IMG/VR virus record: IMGVR_UViG_3300047494_000087
Location: 1-56,069 of that record
From: a virus
Length of the DNA stretch: 56,069 nt
Reading direction: 5' to 3' (one strand)
The translations under genes and the position numbers were made by a program. Shown here one piece after another: positions 3,163-12,037 of the stretch. Position 1 is the stretch's first letter. Every line of letters starts with the position of its first letter. Below the pieces are notes generated by a model. That model was not told the origin of the DNA and made no database searches. It was given only the letters and a program-made list of their open reading frames with translations.

Positions 3163-3478
3163 GCGGCACCCGGCCGTGGCCCAGCAGCGCGCTGCGACGG
3201 TCCAGCTCGGCCGCCTGGCTGGCCAGCGCCGCGTCGATCGCCGGCGCCGGCGGCTCGGCCGCGCGCGGTGCGGGCAGTTCGCGATCCAGCCAGGCGTGCA
3301 CGGCTACTGGGTTCCAGCGGGCACTGACGCGGTTGCCCATAATCGGCCGGGGGAAGCCTTCATGCTCCATCATGAAATTCAGGTTGGCGTAGACCCAGCT
3401 GAGGGGCTGGTTGAACCAGTGGGCCAGATCGAGCCGCGTGTAGGGCGGGCGTTGGCGGATGTCGGGCGCGTATTCCAT
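3152..3478 (-). CDS. AlpA/MerR-like helix-turn-helix DNA-binding protein
   Basis: A 108-residue protein. Residues about 14-65 match the pattern of AlpA/excisionase-type helix-turn-helix proteins: TRLDLAHWF, SWVYANLNFM, then GFPRPIMGNRVSARWNP and VHAWLDRE. Such proteins commonly act as recombination directionality factors or transcription regulators. It is the best excisionase candidate in this operon, although five genes separate it from int. The tail is Ala/Pro/Arg rich. Its ATG shares one base with the stop of the ParB-like gene. Confidence 0.7.
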   Translation of the reverse strand: MEYAPDIRQRPPYTRLDLAHWFNQPLSWVYANLNFMMEHEGFPRPIMGNRVSARWNPVAVHAWLDRELPAPRAAEPPAPAIDAALASQAAELDRRSALLGHGRVPRDR

Positions 3479-5184
3479 TACGCCGCCTCCGCTTCCTCGA
3501 TGGCGTTTTCAAGGTCCGTCTGGCCGGACAGGCGCTGCTCGATCTTGCGGAGGGCGGCGGCCTTTTCCTTCGGAGTGTGCAGCAGGATCGGCGGGATGGT
3601 GTATTTCAGCTTCGTGGCCAAGCTGGCCAGCACAGGGGACAGAGGGCGATCGGGGCTGATGTGCAGCTGGTGGCCGACTATATCCACGATGACGTTGTTG
3701 ATCGCGCCGTCTTTCGTCGCTTCCAGGTGCTGCCAAGCGGCCAGCAGGCGCTTTGTGTCGTCACCTTTCGCATCCTTCAAGTCGCTCAAGATCGCTAGGT
3801 TCTTGCAGCGATGGGTGTCTGGAAGGCCGCGGTGATCGGCAAGGAAATTCACATCCCAGGGCGCTAGGGCCTGAAAGGCCAACAGGCGCAACGCCTCGCC
3901 GACGGTCATCTGATCGGCCAGGAACGCGATCAGCTCTTTGCCGGCGGCCGTGAATTCCTTGTGGTATTCGCAGGCGGCTTCCCATGCCATGGAGCCGGTA
4001 ACCTGCCTTGCCGCACCCTCCGGCGACGCCTTGCGTGCATCCTTCCGGCCTTCGTAAATCGTGGCCTGGCCGCTGTGCAGGCTGAGAACGATCACAACGC
4101 CGGTCCCACCTTCCGGAAATTGGTGGCTGTCAATCCACTGGGTGACTTCCACGAACGACGCGCCCTTCGCGAGCAGCTCGGCCTTCCGCTTTTCCACGGC
4201 CATCTTTTGCATGGCGACGGCCGCATCGAAATCCGTAAGGAAGACTTCGTTCGTGTTGGGATCGGTGAAGGTTTCCAGGCCGGGTTTCTGCCAATCGAAC
4301 CACGCGAATTCGGCCGGAAACATGTCCTGCGTCGCGTCCTGCGCCATTTCTTCGGCGCTGATGCCCTCCATGGCCTGTTCCAGTAGGTCGCCCTGCACCG
4401 CCTTCGGGACGCTGGCGAGTAGCTTGGCCTGGCTGACGGTGATCTCGCCGCTGCGCAGCTTTTCCTTCGCCTCCGGCGGCAGCTTTTCGGCCAGGCCGAT
4501 GCGCAGCTGCACCTGGCGCTGCGTCACCCCCAGCTTTTCGGCGATGGCTCGGGTGGTCCATTTCTTCGGGTCCAGCGCATGGAGGTTGGCGATGGACTCG
4601 GCCTCGTCCATCGGGTTCACGTCCACGCGTTGCAGGTTTTCCACCAAGGCCATCGCGATGTGCTCGGCATCGGTGAGGGTGGTGAAGTGCACGGGCACAC
4701 CCTGTTCGGCCAGCTCGGCGGGTAGGCGCCCGGCGGTTTCCAGCAGTTTCAGCGCGCGGTAGCGGCGTTCGCCGGCAACGATCCAATAGATGGCGGGCTG
4801 ATCCTTGTCCTGGCGCACAACCAGGTTCTGCAGCAGACCCTGCTGCACGATGCTTTCGGCCAGCTCGGCGAGCGCGTCCGGATCGATGGTGCGGCGCGGG
4901 TTCAAATGGCTGGGGGTGAGGTTGGCCAACCGCACGCGTGGCCCTGCTGGCGGGGTGGCGGGCAGCAGCTCCGGCGGTGTGTCGGGGCCCAGCAGCTTCT
5001 GAGGCTCGATGGCGAGGTAGCGGGCGATGCGCAGCACGATTTCCAGGGTCGGCCGGCTATCGGCGGCGCGGCCTTTTCGTAGGGTGCCGTCGCCCAGGCC
5101 GATCGCCTTTTCCAGGTTCGGCAACGTGACGGTGCCTAGAGCCGCATCGAGGCGGGTCCAAAAGGTTTCGGGAATGGTGGTCAT
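3478..5184 (-). CDS. ParB/RepB/Spo0J-family nuclease-domain protein
   Basis: A 568-residue DNA-binding protein. Residues 1-65 look like a Cro/XRE-type helix-turn-helix. Residues about 85-190 form the ParB N-terminal domain, with the CTP-binding motif GERRYRA at 138-144 and ENLQR at 182-186. A helix-turn-helix follows (TTRAIAEKLGVTQRQVQLRI, about 211-230). The remaining 300 residues are unassigned. In plasmids ParB works with ParA, but no parA lies in this prophage, so a regulatory or host-directed role is more likely. It overlaps its upstream neighbour by ATGA. A palindromic parS was not identified. Confidence 0.88.
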   Translation of the reverse strand: MTTIPETFWTRLDAALGTVTLPNLEKAIGLGDGTLRKGRAADSRPTLEIVLRIARYLAIEPQKLLGPDTPPELLPATPPAGPRVRLANLTPSHLNPRRTIDPDALAELAESIVQQGLLQNLVVRQDKDQPAIYWIVAGERRYRALKLLETAGRLPAELAEQGVPVHFTTLTDAEHIAMALVENLQRVDVNPMDEAESIANLHALDPKKWTTRAIAEKLGVTQRQVQLRIGLAEKLPPEAKEKLRSGEITVSQAKLLASVPKAVQGDLLEQAMEGISAEEMAQDATQDMFPAEFAWFDWQKPGLETFTDPNTNEVFLTDFDAAVAMQKMAVEKRKAELLAKGASFVEVTQWIDSHQFPEGGTGVVIVLSLHSGQATIYEGRKDARKASPEGAARQVTGSMAWEAACEYHKEFTAAGKELIAFLADQMTVGEALRLLAFQALAPWDVNFLADHRGLPDTHRCKNLAILSDLKDAKGDDTKRLLAAWQHLEATKDGAINNVIVDIVGHQLHISPDRPLSPVLASLATKLKYTIPPILLHTPKEKAAALRKIEQRLSGQTDLENAIEEAEAA

Positions 5185-7373: not shown

Positions 7374-8516
7374 GTGACCGAACGCCGTTCGCACCTGGTG
7401 CCGATCGATGCGATCGTGCGAGGCCTGACCGACAGGATTGAGGATTTGTGCCGCGTGCTGCTGCCGGCCGGGCGGCGCGATCAGGACGAGTGGCGTGAGG
7501 CCAGCACGCGCGTGGGCGGGCTAGGTGACAGTTTCAGTGTGAACATCACGCGAGGTTCCCGGCGCGGCGTTTGGAGCCATTACGGCGCCGGTCGGTTCGG
7601 TGATGCGTTGGACCTGGTGGCGTATGTGCGCTTCAACGATGACAAGCGCGCGGCGATCGATTGGGCGAAGGCCTGGCTGGGGCTGGATGGTTCCAACCCG
7701 GAAGCGTTGAAGGCCGCCACCATGGCGCCGGCGCGCGACCCGAACGCGGACGCCAAAGCGCGCGAGGAAACCCAGAACAGCCGCAACGCCGCGCATTCGA
7801 TCTATCTGTCCGGCGGCGCCATCGAAGGCTCGCCCGTGGAAGGGTATTTGCTGGGGCGCGGGCTGGACGTGCGGCGGCTGGGCTTTCCGCTGAAGGCGAT
7901 ACGCTGCCACCCCGGCCTGTGGGACCGATACACCGCGCGGAAGTGGCCGGCCATGGTGGCGGCGATTACCAGCGTGGACGGCAAATTCCTGGCGGTGCAT
8001 CGGACGTTTCTGGAAGTGCTGCGCGACGGTTCGGTGCGCAAGGCGCCGATTGTGGATGACAAGGGTGGCGTTTCCAACAAGCGCGCGCTGGGCGCCTATA
8101 GCGGCGGCGTAATCCGGCTGTGGCGCGGCACGCGCGTGGACCCGGACACCGGCGAGATAAAGCAGGCGCGGCGCCTGGCGCAGTGCAAATCCGGCGTGTG
8201 GGTGGATCTGACCGAGGGCATAGAGGACGGGTTGACCGTGGCGATCGCGGACCCGGAAGCACGCGTGCTTTGCGCTGTGTCCGTGTCGAACATGGGCAAG
8301 GTTCGGCTGCCGGCCTGCGTGGAAGGTGTGGTGCTGTGGCGGCAGAACGATGCGCCCGGCAGTGAAGCGGAAAACGCGATGAACAAGGTGGTGCAGCACT
8401 TCCAGGCGGAGGGCAAACGCGTGGCGGATTGCCGGCCGCCGGCGGGGATAAAAGACGCGAACGACATGGTGCGGGAAGCGAACGACGTTCGCCTAAAGGG
8501 CAGTACGCAGGGATGA
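7374..8516 (+). CDS. Toprim-domain primase-like replication protein
   Basis: A 380-residue phage replication protein. The N-terminal part includes RGVWSHYGAGRFGDALDLV, typical of phage and plasmid primase-like proteins of the Toprim (DUF7146-like) type. The C-terminal Toprim region has the catalytic-Glu motif LTEGIEDGL (E281) and a degenerate acidic motif RQNDAPGSEA (D326) where DxD is usual. GTG at 7374 is the start; a palindrome (CGAAC-GCC-GTTCG) follows at once. It overlaps the helicase gene by ATGA, so primase and helicase are probably made together. Confidence 0.8.
   Translation: MTERRSHLVPIDAIVRGLTDRIEDLCRVLLPAGRRDQDEWREASTRVGGLGDSFSVNITRGSRRGVWSHYGAGRFGDALDLVAYVRFNDDKRAAIDWAKAWLGLDGSNPEALKAATMAPARDPNADAKAREETQNSRNAAHSIYLSGGAIEGSPVEGYLLGRGLDVRRLGFPLKAIRCHPGLWDRYTARKWPAMVAAITSVDGKFLAVHRTFLEVLRDGSVRKAPIVDDKGGVSNKRALGAYSGGVIRLWRGTRVDPDTGEIKQARRLAQCKSGVWVDLTEGIEDGLTVAIADPEARVLCAVSVSNMGKVRLPACVEGVVLWRQNDAPGSEAENAMNKVVQHFQAEGKRVADCRPPAGIKDANDMVREANDVRLKGSTQG
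8478..8492. repeat. Palindrome GCGAAC-GAC-GTTCGC
   Basis: Six-bp arms with a variant loop, ending 20 bases before the helicase ATG (8513). It belongs to the set also seen at 19929, 24651 and 31221. Confidence 0.6.
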
Positions 8517-10417
8517 CTGATAACGTCGAGAGTTTGGGTAATGTGCGCCGGTTACGTCGCAGCGCGTTGAAAGAAGCGCCCCGCGTGCCCACTGCCCCGC
8601 CGGAGAGTGACGGCGATACCGACATTCCCAGCTTCCTGCCGGATAAATGTCCGGTGCTGCCGATCGGGAAAAACGGCGATCTATGCTACTACCTCGATCA
8701 GCTGGGCCAGTTGCAGGAATTGAAGTTGCGCGATCATACGCGGCTGAACCTGATGGGTATGTTCGGCAAGCAAAGCTACCTGCTTTACGACTACTGGCCA
8801 CGCAAGGCGCAGAATAAGACAACTCTGGAATGGGAAACAACCGGCTGGAAGCCGGAGGAGTGCGCTGAAGCGCTGATGGCCGAGTGCGGCCGGCTAGGCG
8901 TGTGGAGTGCGGAGGAAAAGGTTCGCGGCGCCGGCGCCTGGAGCGGGCGCGACGGCGAGCTGATCCTGCATTGCGGTGACGAGCTGCTGACCGTGCCGAT
9001 CGGCCAGGATGCCGATCGCGTGGACCGATGGGTGCGCAGCCGGCCCGGCCTGGTGGGCGACATGGTGTACCCCACGGCCGCCCCCGGGTTGAAGCCGCAC
9101 CCTGAGCCGCAGCTGCCGGGCCCACCTGGTCCGGCGGCCGAGCTGCTGGCGCTGCTGGAAACGTGGAACTGGCGGCGCAAGGGCATCGATGCCCAGCTGC
9201 TGCTGGGCTGGATCGGGGCGGCTATGCTGGGCGGCGCGCTGGACTGGCGCGTGGTGGCCTGGATCACGGGTGGGAAGGCCACGGGCAAATCGACCTTGCA
9301 ATCGGCCATCAAATGGCTGATGGGCGACCATGGTCTGTTGCAGACCAGCGATGGCACGGCCGCAGCCATCCGGCAGGTGCTGAAATTTGCCAGCCGGCCG
9401 GTAGCGCTGGATGAAGCGGAAGCCGAGGAAGATAACCGCAAGATGCAGGCGCTGGTGAAGCTGGCGCGTGACGCGGCCAGTGGATCGATCAGCTATCGCG
9501 GCGGCCAGGATCACCAGGCGGCCGCCTTCACGGTGCGCAGCTGCTTCCTGTTCAGTTCCATCCTGATACCGCCGCTGCTGGGCCAGGATCGATCGCGTAT
9601 CGCGGTGCTGGAACTGGACAAGATCGAAGCTAGCGGCAAGGCAAAATCGCATGCCCTGACCCCGCGCAAGATGGAGGAGCTGGGCGCGCGGCTGCAACGC
9701 CGGCTGGTCGGGCAGTGGTATCGATTTGCGGCCACCGTGGATGCGTATCGCGCGGCGATGCAGAAGGCTGGGCATTCGGCGCGTGGGCAGGATTTGTTCG
9801 GCACGCTGCTGGCGGCGGCCGATTGCCTGCTGAGCAACGGCATGCCGGCGCAGGAGGTGCTCGACGGGTGGAGTGTAAAACTCGCCGCCTCCACCCTGGC
9901 GGAAATCGAAGGCGATGTGTCCGACGAAAACGCGTGCCTGGGGTATTTGCTGTCCACGCAAATCGACAATTCACGCAATCGGATCCGGCAATCGATCGGG
10001 CAGTGGATCGTGGCGGCCGCCGGGCTGGGCGAGGTGACGATGACGCAGGAAGCGCTGGCCGCAGCTGAGGAAACCATGAAGAGCGCCGGCAGGGTGCTGC
10101 AAGATCATGGCTTGCGCGTCATAATTGTCGACGATGAGCGATGGCTGGCGATCGCCAACATGCATCGTGGCTTATCGAAGATATTTGAGAATACGCAGTG
10201 GTCAGCGCGGCCTGGCGCGCAAGGTGTGTGGGTCCAGGCCCTGCGGCGGCTGCCACACCAGGTTTCGAAAGATGCTCTGTATTTCGGGAGCGTTAGCAGA
10301 GCGACGCTGCTGCCGCTGAAGCTGTGTCTGCCAGACAACATCGATGACGCCCTTGATATCAGAAAGAAGCCCGTATCGAACGGTCATTCTGAACCTCCGG
10401 ATTGGGATCGGTTCTGA
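8513..10417 (+). CDS. P-loop replicative helicase/ATPase
   Basis: A 634-residue protein with Walker A GGKATGKST (253-261), a Walker B-like RPVALDEAEAE (about 295-305) and QDRSR (359-363) as a possible arginine finger. The layout resembles SF3/primase-helicase C-terminal domains of phages and integrative plasmids. It should unwind the phage origin with the primase encoded just upstream. ATG at 8513 (ATGA overlap) was chosen over an earlier in-frame start inside the primase gene. Confidence 0.85.
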   Translation: MTDNVESLGNVRRLRRSALKEAPRVPTAPPESDGDTDIPSFLPDKCPVLPIGKNGDLCYYLDQLGQLQELKLRDHTRLNLMGMFGKQSYLLYDYWPRKAQNKTTLEWETTGWKPEECAEALMAECGRLGVWSAEEKVRGAGAWSGRDGELILHCGDELLTVPIGQDADRVDRWVRSRPGLVGDMVYPTAAPGLKPHPEPQLPGPPGPAAELLALLETWNWRRKGIDAQLLLGWIGAAMLGGALDWRVVAWITGGKATGKSTLQSAIKWLMGDHGLLQTSDGTAAAIRQVLKFASRPVALDEAEAEEDNRKMQALVKLARDAASGSISYRGGQDHQAAAFTVRSCFLFSSILIPPLLGQDRSRIAVLELDKIEASGKAKSHALTPRKMEELGARLQRRLVGQWYRFAATVDAYRAAMQKAGHSARGQDLFGTLLAAADCLLSNGMPAQEVLDGWSVKLAASTLAEIEGDVSDENACLGYLLSTQIDNSRNRIRQSIGQWIVAAAGLGEVTMTQEALAAAEETMKSAGRVLQDHGLRVIIVDDERWLAIANMHRGLSKIFENTQWSARPGAQGVWVQALRRLPHQVSKDALYFGSVSRATLLPLKLCLPDNIDDALDIRKKPVSNGHSEPPDWDRF

Positions 10418-10752
10418 TGGCAGTGCAGCGAACCGACGGTGATGACGCGCTGCTGGACAGTGAGGCGGCTAGATCGATGTTTCCTGGCTTCGCACGGATG
10501 CGATCGCCGCCGGCGTCGCCCGCACCCATGCTGCACGGCATCGAGTTGGAACTGCTGCTGTTGAACCTGGTGCGGGCGCTGCAGCACGTCAAAACACTGC
10601 CGGGCAGTGGTGATATTGCCTTCATCCGCAGCGTGCGTGGCCGGCGTGCCTCGAGGCTGACTGATGACGAGCGCACAAGGCTGCTGCAGCTGCGCTGGAC
10701 GTATCGCATCCAGCTACCCGAGGGCCTTCGCCCCACGTCCCCACCTGGCTGA
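10417..10752 (+). CDS. Hypothetical protein of replication module
   Basis: A 111-residue protein whose ATG shares a base with the helicase stop (TGATG). Residues about 30-55 (MLHGIELELLLLNLVRALQH) form a strong helix, and the C-terminal part is basic (VRGRRASRLTDDERTRLLQL). It is probably co-expressed with the helicase. No domain recognised. Confidence 0.6.
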   Translation: MAVQRTDGDDALLDSEAARSMFPGFARMRSPPASPAPMLHGIELELLLLNLVRALQHVKTLPGSGDIAFIRSVRGRRASRLTDDERTRLLQLRWTYRIQLPEGLRPTSPPG

Positions 10753-10875
10753 CCGGAAACCATGATGCTTGACGACCACGGTGACCATTTGCGTTCTATT
10801 TTCTCGATGCCCACACCCCTGCGGCATCAGTCATGTTTGGCGGTTGGTTCTAGGGAAGGCTTCCCAAATCTTTCG

Positions 10876-10970
10876 ACCGTTATGCCGACCGTTATGCCGA
10901 CCGTTATGTCGAACATGCAGTGTGGGCCTGGGGAATTTGGATTACATAACGGTATAACGGTCATAACGGT
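10876..10970. repeat. ACCGTTAT iteron-like clusters
   Basis: ACCGTTAT occurs three times at an exact 12-bp period (10876, 10888, 10900) and then three times inverted (10946-10953, 10954-10961, 10963-10970). Further copies lie at 11073-11080, 11081-11088 and 11133-11140 (inverted). The stretch has no convincing gene and lies between the replication and terminase genes. It may be a replication origin or binding sites of a phage regulator. Confidence 0.7.
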
Positions 10971-11165
10971 CCAGCCGCGTGATGTGCGCGCGAGCGCACG
11001 TGCACGCGCGCGTAGATATATATCTCACGCGTATGCGCGTGCGCACAGGCAGGCGCACACATGTAGAAGTAGACCGTTATACCGTTATATCGTTATAAAA
11101 TGTGTAAATGTATGTATTTACAGGGGAATTAGATAACGGTCGACATAACGATCGTATAACGCGAC
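10971..11165. promoter_or_regulatory. Non-coding control region ahead of late genes
   Basis: From 10978 to about 11060 the sequence is largely alternating purine and pyrimidine (GCGCGC, ATATAT, GCGTGCGCAC), a Z-DNA-prone composition. It is followed by three more ACCGTTAT copies, a palindrome TGTAAAT-N6-ATTTACA (11103-11122), and the AT-richest DNA of this part. A late promoter is expected here; TAAAAT near 11200 is a possible -10. Confidence 0.55.
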
Positions 11166-11220
11166 AAGTGCATACAAAGCGGGTTCGGCAAAAACCGATA
11201 AAATATCCGGGTGAAATCAG

Positions 11221-11754
11221 ATGGTTGCTTCAACGGGCGTGGTGGATGCGATGCGCGGCGAGCTGGAAGCGGCGGGCGAGCCGGTGCTCCAACCGTCGCT
11301 GTTCCCGGCGAGCCAGGTGGCCAGCCTGCCGGCCGCGCCCGGCGATCGGCGCGACGCGCTGACGAAGCGCGGCGCCGGGCGACCAGCGGGCGCGCGCAAC
11401 CGGCGGACCGACGCGTTCCGCGACTACGTGCTGCGGCTGTCTGGTGGTGAGCACCCGGTCGAGGGCTTGATCGAGGCATACCAGCGGCCGGTGCACATCC
11501 TGGCGGAGGAGCTGGGGTGCTCGCGGCTGGACGCCTTCAAGGCGCAGCAGGACGCGAGGCGCGTGGTGCTCGAATACGTCGAGGGCAAGATGCCGGTGAG
11601 CGTGAACCTGACGCACCAGCATGCCATCCCGATCATCTTCGAAGGCTTCGACGTGGTGCCTGGTGGGCCTGCGGTGGAAAGTGAATACATTCAAGAGTTT
11701 AGCAGCGAAGAAAACGGCAAGTTGGAACAAGGAAAGTTGGAACATGAAGGTTAA
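11221..11754 (+). CDS. Putative terminase small subunit
   Basis: A 177-residue protein directly upstream of the large terminase. The basic N-terminal part (RGAGRPAGARNRRTDAFRDY, about 50-70) precedes a helical core (HPVEGLIEAYQRPVHILAEE), as in small terminase subunits that bind the packaging site. Assignment rests mainly on gene order and general pattern; no exact family match was seen. Two AGTTGGAAC words near its 3' end match the reverse complement of the putative att arm sites. Confidence 0.6.
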   Translation: MVASTGVVDAMRGELEAAGEPVLQPSLFPASQVASLPAAPGDRRDALTKRGAGRPAGARNRRTDAFRDYVLRLSGGEHPVEGLIEAYQRPVHILAEELGCSRLDAFKAQQDARRVVLEYVEGKMPVSVNLTHQHAIPIIFEGFDVVPGGPAVESEYIQEFSSEENGKLEQGKLEHEG

Positions 11755-12037
11755 GCCGTTGTCGCTGCTGGGCAATCCAGATGCTGAACCGCTGATGGTG
11801 GATCAGCCGGCCAGCCGTCGCCGCGCCCGGCGCTGCCGCCGCGCGCCCGCCGATGGGACCTCCTGGCCTGGGAATTTCCGGCGGGGGGGGTGCCCCGGGT
11901 TTTCGGCTTCGAGCGCTGCGCGCCCCCCTTCGTCCGTGATTTTTTTCAGGTTTCGAACAACGTTCGCCTGCTCGGCGCCACGTCCGAAAATCGGAACGAA
12001 CCTTGCCACCTCCTCGGTCGGAGGGCGCGGGCGGTGA
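11744..12037 (+). CDS. Small protein bridging small and large terminase genes
   Basis: A 97-residue frame starting MKVKPLSLLGNPDAEPLMVD. It overlaps the small terminase stop by 11 bp, and its TGA forms a GTGA with the terminase large subunit start. These overlaps support translation. The later part is Arg, Ser and Ala rich with a run of Gly codons and looks poorly structured, so it may be partly decayed. No family recognised. Confidence 0.42.
   Translation: MKVKPLSLLGNPDAEPLMVDQPASRRRARRCRRAPADGTSWPGNFRRGGCPGFSASSAARPPSSVIFFRFRTTFACSAPRPKIGTNLATSSVGGRGR

Follow-up and report, generated by a model that had tools for sequence, protein, structure and literature searches.

A mirrored array of short words beside a phage helicase gene: a probable replication origin of the SaPI/PICI type

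The word array and its surroundings

What is a dense cluster of one short word doing between the replication genes and the late genes of a phage? The window (the whole stretch of DNA that was analysed) is a 56,069-bp viral record. It has genes of its own for a large terminase and a portal protein and so reads, from its gene content, as a phage or prophage and not as a satellite with PICI-type helper dependence. The 8-letter word ACCGTTAT has nine exact copies in the whole window, all within 10876-11140; dinucleotide shuffles of the whole window gave an expectation of 0.50 and a maximum of 3, and 0 of 100 reached nine. A preliminary description, made from the letters alone, had reported at least nine copies packed together, in the order three direct at 12 bp, three inverted and close, then two direct and one inverted plus near-copies, and the word starts agree with it throughout. 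With the near copies the array has 12 words. They form one large dyad (three words direct, three inverted, a core, then the mirror image), an arrangement that the preliminary description overlooked. The array and its neighbors are as follows.

3478-5184: ParB-like protein gene
7374-8516, plus strand: Toprim primase (DUF7146/Toprim_3), the gene usually paired with the helicase, on its upstream side
8429-10417, plus strand: helicase, 662 aa, phrog_21086, the proposed initiator
10151-10348, plus strand: helicase C-terminal domain, residues 575-640, proposed from covariation as the word reader
10876-10907, plus strand: outer-left words, ACCGTTAT three times, starts 10876, 10888 and 10900, 12-bp period
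10908-10945, no strand: left spacer separating the outer words from the inner ones, AT content 50%
10946-10970, minus strand: inner-left words, ATAACGGT three times, starts 10946, 10954 and 10963, spacings 8 and 9 bp
10971-11072, no strand: core, with alternating purine-pyrimidine (Z-DNA-prone) runs and GC-rich arms around AGATATATATCT
11073-11096, plus strand: inner-right words, ACCGTTAT, ACCGTTAT and the near copy ATCGTTAT, starts 11073, 11081 and 11089, 8-bp pitch
11097-11132, no strand: right spacer, 74% AT, candidate unwinding site, containing the palindrome at 11103-11122
11133-11163, minus strand: outer-right words, ATAACGGT at 11133, near copy ATAACGAT at 11145 and degenerate ATAACG at 11156, pitch 12 and 11 bp
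11221-11754, plus strand: small-terminase-like ORF downstream of the array and outside the origin, labeled from its position before TerL

The segment 10753-11220 is bounded by a 116-aa ORF that ends at 10752 and by the small-terminase-like ORF that starts at 11221. It had been placed between helicase and terminase, and there it is, except that the 116-aa ORF, which follows the helicase gene, intervenes, so that the array does not come directly after the helicase.

The palindrome noted earlier, TGTAAAT-GTATGT-ATTTACA (20 bp), is present inside the right spacer. It was not seen in the closest relative, L006, and is therefore probably outside the conserved design. A 124-aa ORF at 10762-11136 crosses the array. 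Since its start (ATG then ..GCTTGACGACCACGGT) is similar to that in L006, translation of a short peptide may run into the array.

Relatives keep the geometry and change the word

Relatives were gathered by helicase-profile searches of genomes and viral contigs. Searches around three hosts covered 397, 394 and 82 genomes, with 11, 9 and 8 positive; a TerL search of viral contigs found no relatives. Layout statistics refer to 40 loci, with the window counted and near duplicates excluded. They leave out L040, which has only five words, and L104, whose CCTTAC cluster (12 copies) was left unplaced by the layout fit.

L006, the closest relative (its helicase is 65% and its portal 79% identical), has the same layout in the same gap, built of CCTAACC. 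Two gut phage contigs use the words CGTTACC and AGAACC. In the layout fitted to the 40 loci, outer words stand 11-13 bp apart and inner words 8-9 bp apart, and the pattern is then mirrored; measured start to start, the spacer is about 38-48 bp and the core 52-110 bp. An extra outermost inverted pair is frequent. Spacings fall into two classes on the same strand (8-9 and 11-13) and two on opposite strands (about 20-28 and 38-46). Most loci have 11-13 words (11 or 12 in 26 of the 40), and the commonest split between the halves is 6+6 (11 of 40).

The array loci use about 20 distinct words between them, TTCCCAA and CACAACG among them; the words include ATAACGGT, CCTAACC, CCTAACG, CGTTACC, CGGTTACC, GGTAACG, GGTTCT, GGTTCC, GTTCCCAA, ACTTCCCAA, CTGCAACG, CGCAACC, CACAACGG, CTACGAC, CCACGAC, GCCATACC, GCTACG, TGAAACC, GTACACAC and CGTGACA. 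The preliminary description had made its case depend on conservation of the motif in relatives: the word differs, and it is the geometry that is kept.

Are such clusters distinct from chance enrichment? As a control, the best-7-mer enrichment score was computed for 122 random 2-kb segments from the array loci. Its 95% quantile was 7.7, with a few low-complexity segments above; the arrays scored at least 8.0, with a median of 15.4. Two 7-mers, CTACGGC in L036 (24 copies) and L050 (22 copies) and CCGTAGC in L043 (24 copies), were rejected as arrays: their source is runs of GCCGTAGCCGTAG close to where the locus starts. L036 has more than 20 copies of GCCGTAGCCGTAGCCGTC at 1156-1550; these repeats are also found in L050, with a similar run in L043, and are unrelated to the array.

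The cultured phages ZRG1, Acjo_20 and S-H1 have arrays, and MQ-4 and KLER1-1 have word clusters in looser layouts. No clear array was found around the helicase homolog of Bordetella phage PY223 (L112), and none was found with the distant helicases of L096, L101, L107 and L109. The GGTTCT-type loci (L026, L032, L033, L034, L036 and L048) share a consistent sub-layout with a shorter left half, in which spacings of 22-24 and 25-27 replace the spacer of about 44 bp.

The core and the spacers

The longest alternating purine-pyrimidine run in the core of the window is 22 nt, unmatched by sampled segments of the same length elsewhere in the window. In 95% of the 40 loci the longest such run of the core is in the top 5% of same-length segments from its own locus. 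The remark that the array flanks a Z-DNA-like tract thus holds for the family: judged by alternating sequence, the feature is a family-wide trait.

The spacers are AT-rich. Their median AT content over the loci is 55% (left) and 65% (right), against 34% over the whole loci and 38% in the core (right spacer versus locus, Wilcoxon 9e-12). As these AT-rich spacers lie between word sets, each half looks like the published plan of a PICI origin, and the whole looks like two such halves mirrored about the core.

Does the array belong with the helicase or with the terminase?

Most array loci carry genes for the helicase, the Toprim primase, TerL and TerS, and less often for the portal. In most of them the array is at most about 700 bp 3' of the helicase gene; in about a quarter it lies 1.1-3.8 kb downstream. 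It could be a packaging (pac or cos) site whose words are bound by the small terminase subunit, since in most loci a TerS-like gene follows it at a distance of 0-100 bp (sometimes about 600 bp), and whole-protein similarity of TerL and of TerS also correlates with word similarity. We consider this improbable because the array does not follow the terminase. L054 and L106 keep the array beside the helicase gene although their terminases are of the gpA type (Pfam GpA_ATPase, E 2e-78 and 4e-37). In Acinetobacter phage Acjo_20 the array adjoins the helicase gene on its upstream side, about 4 kb from the terminase. BcepC6B, whose TerL is related, lacks a helicase of this kind and showed no comparable array. 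Together these cases argue that the array is linked to the helicase rather than to the terminase. L105 has a different terminase-like pair downstream, judged by eye.

Loci with the same word can moreover have TerS proteins only 39% identical: L041 shares CGTTACC with L025, L030 and L031, their helicases being 71-72% identical and their TerS only 39-40%. In discordant triplets, where the word disagrees in similarity with the helicase as a whole, TerS and TerL go against the word. A separate element, GGGGGGGGTGCCCC, is also present near the start of TerL in the window and in some relatives.

In the window this element is at 11883-11896. A similar G-run/C-run element between array and TerL was present in 8 of the 37 loci tested, among them L006, L026, L027 and L033-L036. 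Possibly it serves as a packaging or cohesive-end site of its own.

The preliminary description had offered, beside an origin, a late-gene switch: a regulator would bind both arms, loop the DNA and control the terminase operon. The window array does lie between replication and late genes, and such an origin could also act on promoters close to it. The position is not kept, however: the Acjo_20 array precedes the helicase gene instead of late genes, and elsewhere the array stays by the helicase although the terminase family differs, so the switch is unsupported. Looping of the DNA is a possibility. No regulator gene is conserved across the family, whose common genes are those for helicase, primase, TerL, TerS and portal, and AT-rich spacers are what an origin predicts. 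We give the switch marginally less chance than the packaging site. Least probable of all is that the ParB-like protein uses the array as its partition site or operator: the window encodes such a protein and phages ZRG1 and PY223 also carry ParB-domain proteins, but among the examined loci, not all of which extend to that region, a relative of it was found only in L006 (= L037) and L027, and the L006 ParB is 51% identical to that of the window although the word differs. All three readings fare worse than a replication origin.

The helicase and its proposed word reader

What kind of helicase is this? The predicted structure (mean pLDDT 81.3) is similar to that of the SaPI5 primase-helicase, 7om0 (Z 16.0, 313 residues, rmsd 5.1) and, over model residues 75-632, to that of the SCCmec Cch protein, 5dgk (Z 15.8, 420 residues, rmsd 6.1); other fold matches are MCM and D5-type helicases. 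SaPI5 Rep and SCCmec Cch are self-loading initiator helicases, and the predicted fold puts the window protein in their class. A DUF927 profile matched only one of 21 helicases, the similarity being below profile detection for most members.

The C-terminal domain (residues 497-640) was modeled as a confident fold (pLDDT 89.5). Searched alone it gave weak matches only, the best being the pCW3 relaxosome accessory protein (Z 3.6), followed at Z 2-3 by the DNA-binding domains of HSF1, IRF and Mbp1 and by Cch (Z 2.9). As there is no strong structural match, a winged helix is plausible at most.

Whole-protein similarity is of no use in identifying the reader of the word. Its correlation with word similarity is at least as strong for TerL, primase and TerS as for the helicase; this comparison was dropped as a discriminator because all four proteins follow phage ancestry, and sliding-window and triplet tests were used instead. 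In a block scan of the helicase, the association of word similarity with block similarity, given the rest of the protein, peaked at residues 575-640. The partial r there was 0.41, the next best block gave 0.26 and the largest of 2000 permutations 0.147; the permutations ignore relatedness, so shared ancestry may explain part of this covariation. In the discordant triplets the C-terminal region of the helicase is among the parts that follow the word, and TerS, TerL and primase are not. The three TTCCCAA loci have EW(C/A)TLV in common in the putative wing, and the GGTTCT loci have SLT(A/S)V in common. The word thus apparently changes together with the proposed DNA-reading end of the helicase.

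In the genome that contains L029 the helicase profile has another, partial match, limited to the C-terminal domain (L108:14358-14600, G003:C2:54991-55233, E 2.8e-5). This match lies about 10 kb downstream of the helicase and is possibly a stand-alone word reader.

The array as a probable replication origin

The segment 10753-11220 is very probably a phage replication origin whose initiator is the helicase encoded just upstream. An origin was the other function that the preliminary description had suggested, and what now speaks for it, at the level of sequence and predicted structure, is the layout found in about 40 relatives, the linkage to a helicase like SaPI Rep and Cch, the covariation of the word with the C-terminal domain, and the AT-rich spacers. 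The GC-skew check proposed at the same time added no independent origin signal, as GC and TA skew track gene direction in the window and in four phage genomes.

How might such an origin work? We propose that each helicase subunit reads one word through its C-terminal domain, and that one hexamer would load on either side of the core, seated on the roughly six words of that half (two or three outer words about 12 bp apart and two or three inner ones 8-9 bp apart, sometimes with the extra outermost pair). Hexamers in opposite orientations would give a bidirectional start. The strands would open in the AT-rich spacers between inner and outer words, the alternating core might absorb or store torsional stress between the hexamers, and the neighboring Toprim primase would supply primers.

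A fuller version of this scheme is a tentative proposal, and one that we think has the odds against it. Two helicase hexamers would load head to head, one per six-word half, like the MCM double hexamer; the Z-DNA-prone core would be a torsional switch; and the 7-9-letter word would co-evolve rapidly with its small C-terminal reader, giving about 20 word-reader pairs. If this is true, these pairs would keep co-resident phages from firing each other's origins.

A probable origin is thereby located in a broad phage group, which includes prophages of Sphingomonas and other proteobacteria and cultured phages of Acinetobacter, Stutzerimonas and Synechococcus; the records examined list no origin feature for it. 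A fixed geometry with about 20 words amounts to a natural experiment in which the change of an initiator's recognition sequence can be followed, and the conserved alternating core makes the role of Z-DNA-prone sequence at an origin testable.

Comparison with known origins

The array is best read as a variant of the SaPI/PICI-type iteron origin, predicted to be recognized by the helicase and carried by whole phages. In PICI origins two sets of iterons, with sequences given for each element, flank an AT-rich region 3' of rep (PMC6092414). The order of initiator helicase and then iterons is the same in most loci here, and two word sets are found around an AT-rich region within each half. The differences are three. 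The carriers here are whole phages or prophages with portal and terminase genes, the module of outer words, spacer and inner words occurs twice, mirrored about an alternating purine-pyrimidine core, and there are two fixed pitches, 8-9 and about 12 bp. An organization like that of SaPI/PICI origins, described as unique among known bacterial replicons, would thus extend to whole phages.

The predicted fold of the window helicase is like that of the SCCmec helicases Cch and Cch2, and Cch2 also has repeats downstream of the helicase gene; these direct repeats are bound by its isolated C-terminal domain (PMC7581432). Recognition of downstream repeats by the C-terminal domain has been reported for both SaPI Rep and Cch2. 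The putative SCC origin has three short iterons, in contrast to the dyad of about 12 words here.

An initiator helicase with iterons is, then, made of known parts. A search of the literature, limited to open-licence papers, found no description of the array; as far as that literature shows, what is new is the fixed double dyad in whole phages with its two fixed pitches, the conservation of the alternating core and the fast turnover of the word.

Two other systems may be compared. The geminivirus Rep is a rolling-circle Rep, an unrelated protein with an unrelated mechanism. The alpha protein of phage P4 is a helicase initiator that binds short repeated words at two separate sites, ori and crr. 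The likeness lies in a phage-encoded helicase initiator with short repeated words; unlike those of P4, the words of the window are gathered in one cluster.
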